Source of the DNA: Komagataeibacter swingsii
Lineage (GTDB): Bacteria; Pseudomonadota; Alphaproteobacteria; Acetobacterales; Acetobacteraceae
NCBI RefSeq assembly: GCF_003207895.1
Contig: NZ_NKUB01000002.1
Location: 62,001-126,000 of the forward strand
Reading direction: 5' to 3'
Length of the DNA stretch: 64,000 bases
Both the position numbers and the translations under genes were made by a program. Below are positions 53,670 to 62,311 of the stretch, in pieces. The notes beneath the pieces were generated by a model. The model did no database searches and was not told the origin of the DNA. It saw nothing but the letters and a program-made list of their open reading frames with translations. The stretch's first letter is position 1. Each line of letters opens with the position of its first letter.

Positions 53670-54182
53670 TTACCGGACGGGTGCGCGTACGGCCGTGACC
53701 TCGATTTCAACCAGCCAGCCGGGATTGCCCAGATGGGCCACGCCAAAAGCGGACCGTACCGGCAGGTTCGGCTGCTTCGCCGTGCCGAAGAACTGGGTAT
53801 AGGCCTTCATCATCCCGTCAAAATCCAGCCTGCCCAACTTCGGGTCCTCAACCATGTACACATGCATCTGGACCACATCGCCCAGACCCAGACCCAGCTT
53901 TTTCAGTTCGCCCTGGATGGATTCCAGCGCGGCGCGGGTCTGGGCCTGTGTATCGCCATAGGCCGCGATGGTGTGCGGGTCGGCCTTCCTGTCCTGTACC
54001 GGCGCGCCCTCACCGCTCAGATAGATTGTCGCGGCCCCAGCCGGCACCTCGATCACGGTGGAAATGGGGAAATCCTTTTCCGGGTGGCGTACGATGCCAT
54101 CGGCCGCGTGCGCGGTCAGCGCGGTTCCCATGCCGGTCATGAGCATGAGTGCGGCAAGGGCCGTCGTTTTCATATCGGGCAT
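53670..54182 (-). CDS. exported RidA-family protein (imine deaminase-like)
   Basis: A 170-residue RidA/YjgF-family protein with an N-terminal signal peptide (MKTTALAALMLM core, cleavage near AHAAD), which is unusual because RidA is normally cytosolic. The family core is present: IYLSGEGAPV, LKKLGLGLGDVVQMHVYMVE, and NLPVRSAFGVA with the conserved Arg that binds the substrate carboxylate. ATG 54182 is chosen because GGAG lies 8 bases upstream and it shares a base with the cytochrome stop codon. In this operon it may hydrolyse the imine made by the amine oxidase to ketoacid and ammonia in the periplasm. Confidence 0.88.
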   Translation of the reverse strand: MPDMKTTALAALMLMTGMGTALTAHAADGIVRHPEKDFPISTVIEVPAGAATIYLSGEGAPVQDRKADPHTIAAYGDTQAQTRAALESIQGELKKLGLGLGDVVQMHVYMVEDPKLGRLDFDGMMKAYTQFFGTAKQPNLPVRSAFGVAHLGNPGWLVEIEVTAVRAPVR

Positions 54183-54607
54183 CAATATATCTCCTTGGGC
54201 GGGATGGCCGGCCGCTGGGGCGTTACCTCGGTCGGGGTCACGGGATCGGTATAGTTATTGCCAAAATGCGTGCGGATGTAGGCCACGACATTGGCAATCT
54301 GCTGGTCCGTCAGCATTTCCGAAAACCATGGCATGCCGCCATACCCGTTCATGATGACATAGATCGGATAGGCGCTGGCCTGTAGCTTGGCATTGCCGGC
54401 CAGCGCCGGGAACTGCGCGCCCGCGCCCATGGCCCCCTTGCCATCGGGCATGTGGCAGCTCTGGCAGACGTGGTGGTACACGTCCTCCCCTGTCGTCATG
54501 GGCTGGACGGCGCCCTCAAACGCGCTGGCGCTGTCGGCATGCGCCGTCCCGGGCGGAGCCAGCAGCGGCAGGGCAAGCAGTGTGGAAAGGAGTACGATCC
54601 TGCGCAT
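54182..54607 (-). CDS. periplasmic c-type cytochrome of the amine oxidase operon
   Basis: Mono-heme cytochrome c of 141 residues: signal peptide (1-24, cleaved near AHA), heme motif CQSCH at residues 48-52, and a likely axial Met in GYGGMPWF. ATG 54607 shares one base with the TGA of the flavoprotein gene upstream, and the stop shares one with RidA. It is the probable electron acceptor of the flavoprotein, linking amine oxidation to the respiratory chain rather than to oxygen. Confidence 0.92.
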   Translation of the reverse strand: MRRIVLLSTLLALPLLAPPGTAHADSASAFEGAVQPMTTGEDVYHHVCQSCHMPDGKGAMGAGAQFPALAGNAKLQASAYPIYVIMNGYGGMPWFSEMLTDQQIANVVAYIRTHFGNNYTDPVTPTEVTPQRPAIPPKEIY

Positions 54608-56211
54608 CAGCTGGCTCCCTGTGCCCGTTTATGCAACTGGGTCACCGCATCCAGCGCGGACAGGATGGCCCCTTCCTGCCAGCATCCGACATAGGATGCA
54701 TGCTCGCCCGCCAGCACGATGCGGTTATCCATCGTGCACAGCGTTTTGTAATGGGTCTTGCGGGCCTGTTCGCTCCACATGGAACAGCAGCCCAGCGCCC
54801 ATGGCACGCGGCTCCATGCCAGGCTGACGCCGTTTGAAAATTCCTTGCGGTACGTGCCGGGATGCAGGACCTCGCCCTGCGCCAGCGCCTGCTCCAGCCG
54901 CGCCTGTGGCGTCATGCCCGCAAAGTCAAAGGCGGCGGGGCCAAACATGTATCCCCCCAGCAGCACCGCCGGGCCACGGGAAAAATAGCCGTGGCTGGGA
55001 TAGGCGATCTGGCTGATCGGCTGGTCGGTATAGCTTATGCCGCCGTAAATCTGGTCATCTTCCTCCCAGAAGCGGCGCCTGAACTCCATCCCCATCTTGA
55101 CCGAGGACGCATAGGGCACCGCCATGATCGCGGCCTTGAGCGGCGCGCTGACCTGCACATCCAGTTGCGACAGGATGGACAGCGGGATGGTGCATACGCA
55201 GTAATCGGCCTGCGCCTGCCGCACCACGCCGCCATGGTTCATGTCATTGTACATGACCCGCACGCCATGGTCATCCTGCCGGATGGATGTGACCTTGCAG
55301 TTCAGGGTGATCAGGTCATGCACCTGCCGGTTGAACCCCCTGCCGATCATGTCCATGCCGCCCACGGGCTGGAACATGGTGGTCTGCATTTCCAGGCGTT
55401 CATGGAAGGCCATCCATGTCCACAGCCCCGACCGCAGCACATCCTTGCGGGCAAACGGGTCCGACGGGATTGGCGCGCCCTCGATCCCGCCACCCTGCGG
55501 CCGGGTATAGCCACGGCGCAGGGAACTGGTATCGCCCTTGCGGTATGCCAGATCGGGGTCAAGGCCGCCCCACTGTTCCATGGCGGTGCGCAGGTGCGCG
55601 CGCTCATCCGCGCCCATCACGTCATCCAGCCTGTGCTGGTCGATCGCCTTGCCCAGCAGCTCGGCCGTAAAGCCGGTGAAGTCGCTTGAGAATTCACGGT
55701 AGCGGACCGGCTTGCCATCAAACGCGGTGGACGAATGAAGCCATGAATTGTGGTTCAGTTCCACAAATGGTTCCAGTTCCACCCCGAATTCGCGGCAGTA
55801 ATGCAGCAGGCCCTGATGGTGATAGGGAATGCGCCATGGGCCGGGATTGATGTAATTGCCCGATGCGAATCCGACCTTCTGCACCGCGCCGCCCAGTTCG
55901 GTTACCGTGTCGCCGCCACGCAGGCTGATATTGCGCCCCCCGCTGCGCCCCTGGAATTCCAGCACCTGCACCGCGTATCCCGCCTTGCGCAGCTCATAGG
56001 CGGACAGCATGCCCGCCAGTCCCGCGCCCAGCACCAGCACGCGCGTCCCGCGTTTCGCGCCCGACAGGACCGGGGGGGCCGTAAAGTCCGTCCCCTGCGC
56101 ATGGCCCATGGTGGTCATGGCCTGGTACAATGCCGCACTACCGGCAAGCGTGCCGATCCGGGTCAGGATCTGCCGGCGCGTAGGGGCCTTGTGCGGATGG
56201 GGGTCTGTCAT
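54607..56211 (-). CDS. Tat-exported flavin amine oxidase / L-amino-acid oxidase-like
   Basis: FAD-dependent enzyme of the monoamine oxidase/L-amino-acid oxidase family, 534 residues. A twin-arginine signal TRRQILTRIG (Arg12-Arg13) sends it folded to the periplasm. FAD motifs are LGAGLAGM (61-68) and GRSGGRN (88-94), with VAGEHAS-like LAGEHASYVGCWQEGAI near the C-terminus closing the FAD site. ATG 56211 is used; a TTG directly precedes it. First gene of the three-gene operon with cytochrome c and RidA. Whether the substrate is an amino acid or an amine is not clear from sequence. Confidence 0.92.
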   Translation of the reverse strand: MTDPHPHKAPTRRQILTRIGTLAGSAALYQAMTTMGHAQGTDFTAPPVLSGAKRGTRVLVLGAGLAGMLSAYELRKAGYAVQVLEFQGRSGGRNISLRGGDTVTELGGAVQKVGFASGNYINPGPWRIPYHHQGLLHYCREFGVELEPFVELNHNSWLHSSTAFDGKPVRYREFSSDFTGFTAELLGKAIDQHRLDDVMGADERAHLRTAMEQWGGLDPDLAYRKGDTSSLRRGYTRPQGGGIEGAPIPSDPFARKDVLRSGLWTWMAFHERLEMQTTMFQPVGGMDMIGRGFNRQVHDLITLNCKVTSIRQDDHGVRVMYNDMNHGGVVRQAQADYCVCTIPLSILSQLDVQVSAPLKAAIMAVPYASSVKMGMEFRRRFWEEDDQIYGGISYTDQPISQIAYPSHGYFSRGPAVLLGGYMFGPAAFDFAGMTPQARLEQALAQGEVLHPGTYRKEFSNGVSLAWSRVPWALGCCSMWSEQARKTHYKTLCTMDNRIVLAGEHASYVGCWQEGAILSALDAVTQLHKRAQGAS

Positions 56212-57997: not shown

Positions 57998-59152
57998 TTA
58001 GCGCAGGATGCCTGTATGCCCGACGGAATACCGTCCCGGCTGCGGCCACACCGTCAGGCCATGCGGTTCCAGCCCCACGGGAATGCTGCGGGTCGCACCC
58101 GTGGTGGTGTCGATGGCGTAGACAACATCGTCAAACCGGCCGGACAGCCACAGCGTCCTGCCGTCGTTGCTGACATTGCCCATGTCGGGGCTGCCGCCAC
58201 CGGGAATGGGCCAGTTGGCCACGACCCTGTCCATTGCGAAATCGATCACGCTGACCCCGCCGGCCTTGCTGTGCGGCGCGCCATGGATCTTGTGCGATCC
58301 CCGGTTGGCCACGTACATCTTCGTGCCATCACGGCTGGGATACAGGCCATGCGTGCCGATGCCGGTGGGAATGAAGCCCGTTTCACGGAAGGTGTCGCCG
58401 TCGATCACGAACACCCCGTCGGCATGCATGTCCGCCACATAGAATTTGTGCCCGTCCGGCGCGGTCAGGATATCCTGCGGCATGCCGCCACGCGACAGCT
58501 TCAGGTACCCGATCAGCGTGCGGTTCACGGTATCGACCTTGGCCAGGTAACCGCCGAATTCACAGGTGAAGATGGCATAGCGCCCGTCGATGGAGAAATC
58601 GGCGTGGTTGACGCCCTTGCACTGCGGGACCGACACCGAACCCTGCATTTCCATCGTGTGCGGGTCACGGAAATCCAGCCGCTGACGGGCTTCGGCCACC
58701 GTAATGGCGGATTTTCCGTCGGGGGTGAAATACATGTTGTACGGGTCATCCACCGCCACGCTGGGCAACGGCTGCGTGGTGCGCGGGTCGATGGGCGTCA
58801 GGCTGCCATCGGTCGTGCCTTCGGCATTGTTGGTGACCCATAACGTGCGCAGGTCCCATGACGGGACGACATGCTGCGGGCTTTTGCCCACCTTGAAACG
58901 CGCCACGACCTTGTATGTCTGCGGGTCGATCACATAGACGTTGTTCGACCGCAGGTTGGGTACGTAAATGCGCGGCGGGTCCTGCGCCACCTCGGGGTTG
59001 AGCTTCCCGGCCCGGGTTTCGGTATAGATGTTGGTCGGGTCCACCACGGGTGGCATTCCGGGAATGGTATCCACGGCCTGCGCAAGCACGCTGCCACCCG
59101 ACAGCAGGAGCATGCCCAGTCCCAGAACCGGCAGCTTTTTCTTTTGTATCAT
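57998..59152 (-). CDS. exported YncE-like beta-propeller protein
   Basis: A 384-residue periplasmic protein with signal peptide (1-25, cleaved near VLAQA) and a seven-bladed beta-propeller of YVTN-type repeats, for example RIYVPNLRSNNVYVIDPQTY, HKFYVADMHADGVFVIDGDT and TKMYVANRGSHKIHG. Two or three Cys are present, and a few His. E. coli YncE is iron/copper related and DNA-binding in vitro, but the role here is not known. It is followed by hairpin copy C. Confidence 0.85.
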   Translation of the reverse strand: MIQKKKLPVLGLGMLLLSGGSVLAQAVDTIPGMPPVVDPTNIYTETRAGKLNPEVAQDPPRIYVPNLRSNNVYVIDPQTYKVVARFKVGKSPQHVVPSWDLRTLWVTNNAEGTTDGSLTPIDPRTTQPLPSVAVDDPYNMYFTPDGKSAITVAEARQRLDFRDPHTMEMQGSVSVPQCKGVNHADFSIDGRYAIFTCEFGGYLAKVDTVNRTLIGYLKLSRGGMPQDILTAPDGHKFYVADMHADGVFVIDGDTFRETGFIPTGIGTHGLYPSRDGTKMYVANRGSHKIHGAPHSKAGGVSVIDFAMDRVVANWPIPGGGSPDMGNVSNDGRTLWLSGRFDDVVYAIDTTTGATRSIPVGLEPHGLTVWPQPGRYSVGHTGILR

Positions 59153-59204
59153 AGTGTGATCCTGTTCCTTGCGGCCCCTATAGCACGCCGTGTGGCTGGT
59201 GCAA

Positions 59205-60026
59205 TCAGTGCGAATTCTGTCCTGTTGGGTCGTGTTGCATGGCCGTCACGGCCGCCGCTACCTGCATGTTGGCCCCTGCCTGCCCCAGCGCAGCACTGGC
59301 CTGTCGCGGGTCGCCGCCATACACCCCCTGCGCCGGGGTTGGCAGGGGGGCGGCGCGCAGGGCCTGCGTGCGCACAAGGGCAGGGTCCAGCGCCAGCATG
59401 AGCGACGTGTCGGACAGGTCGGCATGCATGCCCACCTCCGCCGCATGGCCGTGCTGGCGCAGCCAGGTGGAATAGGCGCCGGGCACCACGTCGTAATATT
59501 CCGCGACGTACAGCACGTGCGCGCCCTGTCCCTGCCAGCGATGGTTGAGCGTATCCGCCACCGCGCGCAGGTCCTTCTGGTAGCCGCCGTGGTCGCCAAT
59601 CAGCACCACGCGCCTGAACCCCTGCACCCGGAAGCTTTCCGCCGCGTCCGACAGCAGGGCGCGGAAAGTCGCGGGCGTAATGCTGATCGTGCCGGCAAAG
59701 CGCATGTGCGACGTGCGCGGCGACGTACCGCCTTCGGGCACGTACGCCACCACGGGCGCGACAAGGGCATGCCCGGCATCGCGGGCAATGCGGCGCGCAA
59801 GGATCATGGCGCGCGCGTCGTGCTTGCCGACCGCGATATAGGGGCCGCTCTGTTCCGTGCCGCCGACGGGAATGATGATGGTGGTGTCGCCGCCATGGAT
59901 GGCGTCACGGATTTCGGTCCATGTCAGTGCCGCGAAATCAACCGTGTCGGGGGGCGTGGCCCGCGCGGGCGCGTACAGCGCCAGCACCAGCGAAAGCCCG
60001 GACAGGAAACCAGAGACCATACGCAT
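59205..60026 (-). CDS. exported creatininase-family protein
   Basis: A 273-residue protein of the creatininase/creatinine amidohydrolase family (metal-dependent amidohydrolase fold), with a signal peptide (about 1-22). The first metal motif reads GGTEQSGPYIAVGKHDARA: the Glu and Asp ligands are there, but the His of the usual TEQHG is Ser. The second motif is IGDHGGYQKDL, and VGMHADLSDTSLML is also conserved. Its substrate is unknown, and the export is unusual for enzymes of this family. ATG 60026 is chosen for the signal peptide. Divergent from katE. Confidence 0.82.
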   Translation of the reverse strand: MRMVSGFLSGLSLVLALYAPARATPPDTVDFAALTWTEIRDAIHGGDTTIIIPVGGTEQSGPYIAVGKHDARAMILARRIARDAGHALVAPVVAYVPEGGTSPRTSHMRFAGTISITPATFRALLSDAAESFRVQGFRRVVLIGDHGGYQKDLRAVADTLNHRWQGQGAHVLYVAEYYDVVPGAYSTWLRQHGHAAEVGMHADLSDTSLMLALDPALVRTQALRAAPLPTPAQGVYGGDPRQASAALGQAGANMQVAAAVTAMQHDPTGQNSH

Positions 60027-60208
60027 GAACGGCAGCCATCCCCACAACGATGCGTGACACATGTCGCCCCTGTTGCCCGGTACGCAGGCGGTTGGCAACC
60101 GTCATCGCGCGGGGAAATGAAACCCTGCCCACGCCAGCCCGTTGGAAAAGCCGGACCTTCTCCCCATCCCTGTTTTTTCCGCCCCCTGCACGGATATGTA
60201 CCCACGCC

Positions 60209-62311
60209 ATGGCCAAGACATCCCATCCCCCCATGTCCCCCACCACGCATACCGGCGCGGGTGGCGAAACCCACCAGACGGCAGGGGGCGATACCCCCGC
60301 CATGACCACCCAGCAGGGTGTCGCGGTATCGGATGACCAGAACACCCTGCGCGCGGGCGCTGGTGGACCGGCGTTGATGGAAGATTTCCATTTCCGGGAA
60401 AAAATCTTCCACTTCGACCACGAACGCATCCCCGAACGCGTGGTCCATGCCCGTGGCTACGGCGCGCATGGCTATTTCGAGCTGACCGACAGCCTGAGCG
60501 ATGTCTGCAAGGCCGATATTTTCGGCAATGTGGGCGCGCGCACCCCCGCCTTCGTCCGGTTTTCCACCGTCGCGGGCAACAAGGGATCGGCGGATATGGT
60601 GCGCGACGTGCGCGGCTTTGCCGTCAAGCTTTATACACAGCAGGGCAACTGGGACCTTGTGGGCAACAACATTCCCGTCTTTTTCATACAGGACGCCATC
60701 AAGTTCCCCGATTTCGTCCATGCGGCCAAGCAGGAGCCGGACCGCGACTTTCCACAGGCCCAGACGGCGCATGACAATTTCTGGGATTTCGTATCGCTCT
60801 CGCCCGAGGCCACGCACATGGTCTGCTGGGCCATGTCCGACCGCGCCATCCCGCGTTCCTTCCGCTTCATGGAAGGGTTCGGGGTGCATACCTTCCGCCT
60901 GATCAATGACGAAGGCCAGTCCACTTACGTCAAGTTTCACTGGAAGCCGAAGCTGGGCCTGCAGTCGGTGGTGTGGAACGAGGCGCTGAAGATCAATGGC
61001 GCCGACCCCGATTTCCACCGCCGCGACCTGTGGCAGGCCATAAACAGCGGCCGTTTCCCGGAATGGGAACTGGGCGTGCAACTGTTTGATGACGCATTTG
61101 CCGACAGTTTTGACTTTGACATCCTCGACCCCACCAAGCTGGTCCCCGAGGAACTGGTGCCGGTCCGCCGCGTGGGACGCCTGGTGCTGGACCGCATGCC
61201 GGACAACTTCTTTGCCGAGACCGAGCAGGTCGCCTTCTGCACCCAGAACGTCGTGCCCGGCATCGACTTCACCAACGACCCGCTGCTGCAGGGGCGCAAC
61301 TTCTCCTACCTTGACACCCAGACCAAGCGCCTTGGCGGCCCCAACTTCACGCATATCCCCATCAACGCGCCCAGATGCCCGTTCCATAATTTCCAGCAGG
61401 ACGGGCACATGGCCATGCACAACCCGAAGGGCCGGGCCAATTACGAACCCAATTCGTGGCCCCAGCCCACTGGCGGCCCGCGTGAAAGCGTGAATGGCTA
61501 TAGGTCGTACCCCGACATGGTGTCGGGCCAGAAGGTCCGCCAGCGTTCGGAATCCTTTGCCGACCATTACAGCCAGGCGCGCCAATTCTTCATCAGCCAG
61601 ACCCCGGTGGAACAGACGCATATCCGCGATGCGTTCGTCTTTGAACTGAGCAAGGTCGAAACCCCCGCCATCCGCGCCCGCATGGTCAGCCACCTGCTGC
61701 ATGTCGATCAGGACCTGGCCAAGGGGGTGGCGAAGGGGCTGGGCCTGTCGCCCCTGCCCGCACCGGCACAGGCCGCCCGCCCCGTGGTCGCGGGGCTGGA
61801 ACCATCGCGCGCCCTGAGCATCCTGAAAAACGGACCGGACAGCTTTGCCGGCCGCAAGCTGGGCATTGTCGTGACAAACGGAGTGGATGCCGCCCTGCTG
61901 GCCGCCCTGCGCGACGCCGCCGGGGACGTGGGCGCCACGGTCGAGCTGATCGCGCCCACCGTGGGCGGCCTGAAGGACAGCGCGGGCCACGACCTGACCG
62001 TGCAGCAGAAGATCAATGGCGGCCCGTCCGTGCTGTATGACGCCGTGGCCCTGCTGCCCACGGTCGAGGGCGCCAATCTCCTGCGGCACGAGGCTACCAT
62101 GCGCGACTTCATTTCCGACGCCTTCGCCCATGCCAAGTTCATCGCGCATAACGACGCCGCCGAGATCGTACTGGCGGCGGCGGGCCTGCACCCCAAGGCG
62201 CGCGACAAAGGCGTGGTCGCCATCCATGGCGCGCAGGACGCGGCCGGTTTCATCCAGACCTGCGCGGCACTGCGCCTGTGGGAGCGTGAAGGCCACGTCC
62301 ACGCTGTCTGA
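60209..62311 (+). CDS. katE: large-subunit catalase HPII, KatE
   Basis: Cytosolic heme catalase of 700 residues, of the large-subunit clade. The catalytic His is His80 in [12 protein letters not shown], with the Asn in [14 protein letters not shown] and the heme-ligand Tyr in [14 protein letters not shown]. The C-terminal 150 residues ([19 protein letters not shown] onward) are the flavodoxin/DJ-1-like domain of this clade. ATG 60209 is chosen because it gives the normal N-terminal arm; the frame stays open upstream. It protects against peroxide from the oxidative metabolism of these bacteria. Confidence 0.95.

Follow-up and report, generated by a model that had tools for sequence, protein, structure and literature searches.

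To which acceptor would an exported flavoprotein pass the electrons that it draws from an amino acid, when its gene is followed by those for a cytochrome c and a Rid-family protein? We addressed this question for a minus-strand trio of genes (56211–53670) in a 64,000-nucleotide stretch of the Komagataeibacter swingsii genome (contig NZ_NKUB01000002.1, positions 62,001 to 126,000), the whole of which is referred to here as the window. The operon probably encodes a periplasmic L-amino acid dehydrogenase system. The trio is already known in the same bacterial family as the lao-cccA-ridA cluster of Gluconacetobacter diazotrophicus, and the present operon is a further instance of it and not a new system. 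Its main interest lies in the cytochrome as an acceptor for an enzyme of the L-amino acid oxidase (LAAO) type and in the sink for the electrons.

The gene trio and its precedent

The genes are arranged in the order flavoprotein, cytochrome c, and Rid protein, with all three open reading frames intact. A preliminary description of the locus had reported three overlapping genes encoding a flavoprotein with a twin-arginine translocation (Tat) signal, a cytochrome c, and an exported Rid protein. Both layout and protein types were borne out: TGATG forms a one-base stop/start overlap at each junction, with a Shine-Dalgarno-like stretch just 5' of it, and the protein types agreed with Pfam matches (Amino_oxidase, 8.3e-50; Cytochrome_CBB3, also of the Cytochrom_C family, 2e-13; Ribonuc_L-PSP, 1.7e-16) and with predicted signals. 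The Tat signal was read from its motif, and the general secretory (Sec)-type signals of the cytochrome and the Rid protein were judged by eye and with a crude script. The individual features are listed below, each with its basis in parentheses.

54607–56211, minus strand: lao, L-amino-acid-oxidase-like flavoprotein of 534 amino acids with a Tat-type signal (Pfam, structure matches, alignment)
56164–56181, minus strand: Tat motif TRRQIL, residues 11–16 of the flavoprotein (sequence)
55831–55833, minus strand: Arg127 of the GPWRIP motif of the flavoprotein, candidate substrate-carboxylate binder (alignment)
54605–54609, minus strand: TGATG joint between flavoprotein and cytochrome genes (AGGGAG upstream at 54620–54615)
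54182–54607, minus strand: cccA, cytochrome c of 141 amino acids with a Sec-type signal and one haem (Pfam and sequence)
54452–54466, minus strand: haem motif CQSCH of the cytochrome c (sequence)
54180–54184, minus strand: TGATG joint between cytochrome and Rid genes (AAGGAG upstream at 54196–54191)
53670–54182, minus strand: ridA, Rid-family protein of 170 amino acids (Pfam; nearest solved relatives are Rid3 proteins)
54105–54182, minus strand: Sec-type signal of the Rid protein, residues 1–26 (sequence)
53754–53756, minus strand: residue Arg143 of the Rid protein, in the position that the catalytic arginine takes in the Rid family (alignment)

The statement in the preliminary description that no system with this trio had been described is refuted by a study of 2016 (PMC5053998). 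Its passages on the cluster describe lao-cccA-ridA in G. diazotrophicus PAL5 (GDI2456–GDI2454), a member of the same family, and propose the same cooperation, with the cytochrome and RidA assisting the enzyme, probably in the periplasm. According to these passages, the three genes share one transcript, transposon mutants make no indole-3-acetic acid (IAA) and leave tryptophan unused, with all three transcripts lowered in the mutant tested, and earlier cytochrome c maturation (ccm) mutants, which the authors cite, showed IAA at 5% of normal. All six primers used there for quantitative reverse transcription PCR match one of our loci, L009, exactly. The lao and cccA forward primers lie at bases 1209 and 121 of the genes, as printed, and the ridA forward primer lies at 148, counted from a start chosen by script, versus 142 printed. 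The flavoprotein of L009 is 81% identical to that of the window. In a tree of 123 flavoproteins, L008, a near copy of L009 (which was left out), and the window share a 39-row group at 99 (a starred branch) and a 27-row group at 91.

The two clusters thus have the same three genes in the same order on one strand, headed by orthologous flavoproteins of the Tat-type LAAO kind; they differ in genus and in that the host genome here has two copies. The second lao-cytochrome-rid copy (G000:C22:14229-15824; L002, L050) encodes a flavoprotein 86% identical to that of the window, and it is flanked by a TonB-dependent receptor gene, which lies 215 bases upstream, and by a transposase gene on the downstream side. 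Among the matches listed, the closest flavoproteins are those of Komagataeibacter sp. FXV3 (97%) and K. europaeus (96%). Searches of the open-access literature turned up no Komagataeibacter phenotype for the trio. The clustering of Rid genes with flavin adenine dinucleotide (FAD) amine oxidase genes was already noted in a passage of PMC4433059. The LAO1/LAO2(RidA) system of Chlamydomonas similarly combines RidA with an L-amino acid oxidase located in the periplasm and leads from tryptophan to IAA; it differs in being eukaryotic and in that the passages on the system describe no cytochrome c partner of its own (PMC10805672).

Protein families and the proposed reaction

A sequence search of solved structures gave the L-amino acid oxidase of Rhodococcus opacus (2jae) as the best match to the flavoprotein (1.3e-88). 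A structure model was obtained from 40 aligned relatives, with a mean predicted local distance difference test (pLDDT) score of 85.3 and values below 50 for residues 1–39, and a fold search with this model also placed 2jae/2jb1 first (E 2.6e-52; template modelling (TM) score 0.84 for query and 0.93 for target; 37% identity), with venom, glutamate, and lysine oxidases next in rank. The resemblance extends to aligned active-site residues. In the alignment, Arg127 of the flavoprotein is matched by an arginine both in 2jae and in the tetrapod LAAO ancestor, a residue that presumably holds the substrate carboxylate in LAAO structures. We take the R. opacus enzyme to be an O2-using oxidase, unlike the dehydrogenase proposed here.

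Conservation of these residues was examined in a set of 80 loci (L072–L151), the best 80 of at least 569 confirmed matches from one scan of genome contigs. Arg127, Lys372, and Trp511 are kept in all 80 flavoproteins and in 69 of 69 other aligned relatives, and the Tat arginines R12 and R13 are present in 80 of 80. The flavoprotein thus combines the LAAO-nearest flavin amine oxidase fold with, by alignment, the carboxylate arginine, the two features by which it was compared with class EC 1.4.3.2. Given the alignment and conservation of Arg127 and the structure matches headed by LAAOs, the substrate, previously described as an amine or amino acid, therefore narrows to the class of L-amino acids. 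A broad-type amine oxidase was set aside as the identity of the flavoprotein, with L-amino acid oxidases at the top of both the sequence and the fold rankings.

The cytochromes beside the flavoproteins of the 80-locus set carry a single CxxCH motif in 79 of 79 cases. The best solved relatives of the operon cytochrome are haem domains of the cytochrome subunits of alcohol and fructose dehydrogenases, with modest E-values (2.5e-08 and 3.2e-08). For the Rid protein, the nearest are the Rid3 proteins PFL_1385 and PSPTO_3006 (1.2e-29 and 5.4e-29), and it may belong to the Rid3 subfamily. The passages of PMC5619798 on the two Rid3 proteins report their action in vitro on imines that an L-amino acid oxidase had produced; no such operon is described in these passages, and the words "signal" and "periplasm" do not appear in the main text. 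Arg143 of the operon protein aligns with RidA Arg105, the arginine by which deaminase activity is judged in that study. A P-x-R pattern at this position is found in 65 of 66 Rid relatives (the remaining one reads PSRA), and 65 of 66 also have the hydrophobic stretch and AxA of our crude signal test.

A reaction sequence can be proposed on this basis. The flavoprotein would fold with FAD in the cytoplasm and then be exported by the Tat route, as its signal suggests. Hydride transfer to it from an L-amino acid (tryptophan, for example) would yield an imino acid, in line with its family and with the G. diazotrophicus mutants. The cytochrome c encoded by the adjacent gene would then reoxidise the reduced FAD one electron at a time, as has been shown only for other members of the superfamily, and hydrolysis by the exported Rid protein would convert the imino acid into ammonium and a 2-keto acid, as shown in vitro for Rid3 relatives. 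The preliminary description had put forward export, a cytochrome that takes up the electrons, and a Rid protein that hydrolyses the imine, and these parts fit both the sequence and the work on relatives; the respiratory coupling that it added fared less well, as described below.

The dehydrogenase chemistry is likely because Tat export together with a neighbouring cytochrome c gene is reported, in passages of a 2025 study, to be a good predictor of cytochrome-c-using dehydrogenases in the superfamily (PMC12224317). Both features are found here, namely a Tat motif on the flavoprotein and an adjacent cytochrome c with a predicted Sec signal. The systems described in that study, including NicA2/CycN and Pnao, resemble the operon in having a Tat-exported flavoprotein of the same superfamily and an adjacent exported cytochrome c, which is monohaem in clades 2 and 3. 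The operon differs from them in its LAAO-type enzyme with the LAAO arginine and in its additional Rid protein; PMC12224317 makes no mention in its main text of the terms RidA, imine, or amino acid oxidase.

Conservation of the cluster

In the 80-locus set, a cytochrome c gene lies 3' of the flavoprotein gene at 79 loci, and the gene order is therefore not due to chance. The start of the cytochrome gene falls between –76 and +181 bases from the flavoprotein stop, with 72 of the 79 genes starting at –8 to +5 and 38 showing the exact one-base overlap. No cytochrome c was found beside the flavoprotein of L114, a second copy in Acetobacter musti whose flavoprotein has a long branch. A Rid gene follows the pair at 33 loci, all from Acetobacteraceae or uncultured Rhodospirillales. 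The exact overlap between cytochrome and Rid genes was seen at just two of these, the others lying at –8 to +13, and this exact overlap is therefore a local detail. A search of both strands with a Rid hidden Markov model added L056 beside a flavoprotein and gave farther matches for L114, L120, L136, L144, and L150.

Among 48 loci of the family (L002–L049), a cytochrome c match was found at 48 (at 46 within one open frame) and Rid at 32. Some organisms, as with L032 and L101, are represented both here and in the 80-locus set, which makes the two sets of counts interdependent. A group of 21 distant loci (L051–L071), with flavoproteins approximately 37–43% identical, yielded a cytochrome c in four, two of them with Rid (L054 and L056); in this group L064 is unscored, fewer than 900 bases follow the flavoprotein in L052, L053, and L059, and a short frame with CxxCH is seen in L068 and L069.

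The tree of 123 flavoproteins, constructed with FastTree, included 52 with Rid, 64 without, and 7 unscored because of short flanks. The Rid label requires 11 changes on this tree, nine of them forced by starred branches; gain and loss are not distinguishable, and long branches leave parts of the tree unsure. Given the cytochrome in 79 and Rid in 33 of the 80 loci, together with these 11 changes, the flavoprotein-cytochrome pair is the stable core, often joined by Rid, which has been repeatedly gained or lost. The expectation that the genes are kept together in related genomes thus held for the pair and often failed for Rid.

Two broader candidates were rejected. Rid as an obligate third gene does not agree with the locus counts and tree changes just given. 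Restriction of the trio to Acetobacteraceae is contradicted by plasmid loci outside the family: in the four annotated loci among five inspected from 73 plasmid records with a match, the trio is present in Microvirga ossetica, Comamonas odontotermitis, and Ketogulonicigenium vulgare, and Rhizobium gallicum is without Rid. The Caulobacter loci examined keep the pair, with no Rid gene beside it. In a passage of PMC5053998, OperonDB is cited for conservation of the cluster in Caulobacter crescentus and Xanthomonas.

Other features were noted around the relatives. A gene for a TonB-dependent receptor lies near the flavoprotein gene in 26 of the 80 loci, upstream in 24 and, in 11 of these, within 300 bases. 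Five Caulobacter loci (L115, L130, L135, L139, and L140) have a gene for a di-haem cytochrome c peroxidase 3.4–3.7 kb upstream of the flavoprotein, the match in L135 covering 66 amino acids only. Two short pieces related to the flavoprotein (81% and 84% identical, one of them interrupted by a stop) at G073:C23:207219-207500 look like a decayed copy.

Electron acceptor and electron sink

An alternative to cytochrome reduction is that the flavoprotein works in the periplasm as an L-amino acid oxidase and forms H2O2 from O2, with the cytochrome put to another use such as peroxide removal or a different electron path. Its nearest solved relatives are indeed named oxidases, and the host genome encodes two MauG/peroxidase-type proteins. 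Lys372, kept in all 80 sequences, can be read from the alignment as the lysine beside flavin N5 that has been linked to O2 reactivity, although passages of the same study state that this lysine occurs in dehydrogenases too (PMC12224317). An adjacent cytochrome c is also described there as predicting low O2 reactivity, and the loss of IAA in the ccm mutants (cited in PMC5053998) is likewise at odds with an oxidase. With the cytochrome gene beside the flavoprotein at 79 of 80 loci, the gene context argues against O2 as the acceptor, and we consider this alternative unlikely.

That the substrate is a larger or different amino compound delivered by an outer-membrane receptor, and not a free L-amino acid, appears very improbable. 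In its favour, free amino acids normally cross by way of porins, and a receptor gene lies upstream at 24 loci, 11 of them within 300 bases, and also beside the second copy. Against it, no receptor gene was seen beside the window copy, and tryptophan is left unused by the G. diazotrophicus mutants (PMC5053998).

Several observations also weigh against the L-amino acid dehydrogenase that we favour. Passages of PMC12224317 state that sequence cannot reliably separate oxidase from dehydrogenase, that clade 1 enzymes reacted modestly with their own cytochromes, and that the B. anthina enzyme showed comparable rates with O2 and cytochrome. The transposon mutants of G. diazotrophicus, as described in PMC5053998, were polar and uncomplemented, and single-gene roles were not separated. 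No LAAO-type relative assayed with cytochrome c turned up in the open-access literature. At position 421 of the flavoprotein, the tyrosine is present in 57 of the 80 sequences and replaced by phenylalanine in 23. Rid was not found beside the pair in 47 of the 80 loci, five of which (L123, L127, L131, L132, and L147) have less than 1 kb downstream. Finally, searches of the host genome with COX1, CtaD, ccoN, and COX2 models recognised no cytochrome c oxidase; a divergent oxidase could escape them.

The host genome (G000; 3.73 Mb, 99.99% complete) has a CyoABC ubiquinol oxidase with scores above the Cyo cut-offs. The COX1 search yielded CyoB and a frame of 469 amino acids (L160:5414-6823; G000:C69) beside a haem o synthase gene. 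With the CtaD model, this frame scored 147.9 bits versus a cut-off of 670.75, and the best match in the genome was at the level of CyoB (576.8). The frame appears to be what is left of a cytochrome c oxidase that has been lost. The ccoN model gave no match, and the sole COX2 match was CyoA. Because no cytochrome c oxidase was recognised, the coupling to respiration suggested in the preliminary description is here an unproven guess.

This absence applies to the host genome alone, and other family members have stronger matches. Of 299 genomes sampled from the family, 183 passed the cut-off for CtaD and 122 that for ccoN. Within the genus, G060 and G184 gave stronger CtaD matches (4.4e-196 and 2.2e-199) and G254 a weak ccoN match below the cut-off. 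The genome of L009 (G247) perhaps also has a stronger oxidase match, with a CtaD value of 6.9e-201 whose standing relative to the cut-off is not shown.

In addition to the two MauG/peroxidase-type proteins, the host genome encodes cytochrome c1 of the bc1 complex. Approximately 3 kb before the cytochrome c1 gene lies that for a MauG/MbnH-like cytochrome with three CxxCH motifs, which scored below the model cut-offs (L158:2728-4140; G000:C102); it is a possible partner of the operon cytochrome.

Near the operon in the window, a gene for a YncE-like beta-propeller protein adjoins a creatininase-family gene (57998–60098, minus strand), both with signal-like starts. A large catalase gene (60050–62311, plus strand) lies approximately 4 kb from the operon; a link to operon-derived peroxide is conceivable.

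The operon raises the question of how cytochrome c is reoxidised in an acetic acid bacterium in which no cytochrome c oxidase was recognised. A route by way of the quinone pool was considered because the nearest solved relatives of the cytochrome are the haem domains of alcohol and fructose dehydrogenases. We suggest tentatively, as a possibility that is open to considerable doubt, that the LAAO branch holds widespread cytochrome-c-specific L-amino acid dehydrogenases, and that in oxidase-less acetic acid bacteria their electrons pass to the quinone pool or to a MauG/peroxidase-type cytochrome by an undescribed route. Should the cytochrome prove to be the true acceptor, many of the proteins that annotation calls flavin monoamine or L-amino acid oxidases would be peroxide-free dehydrogenases, and the auxin phenotype of G. 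diazotrophicus would gain a defined biochemistry.

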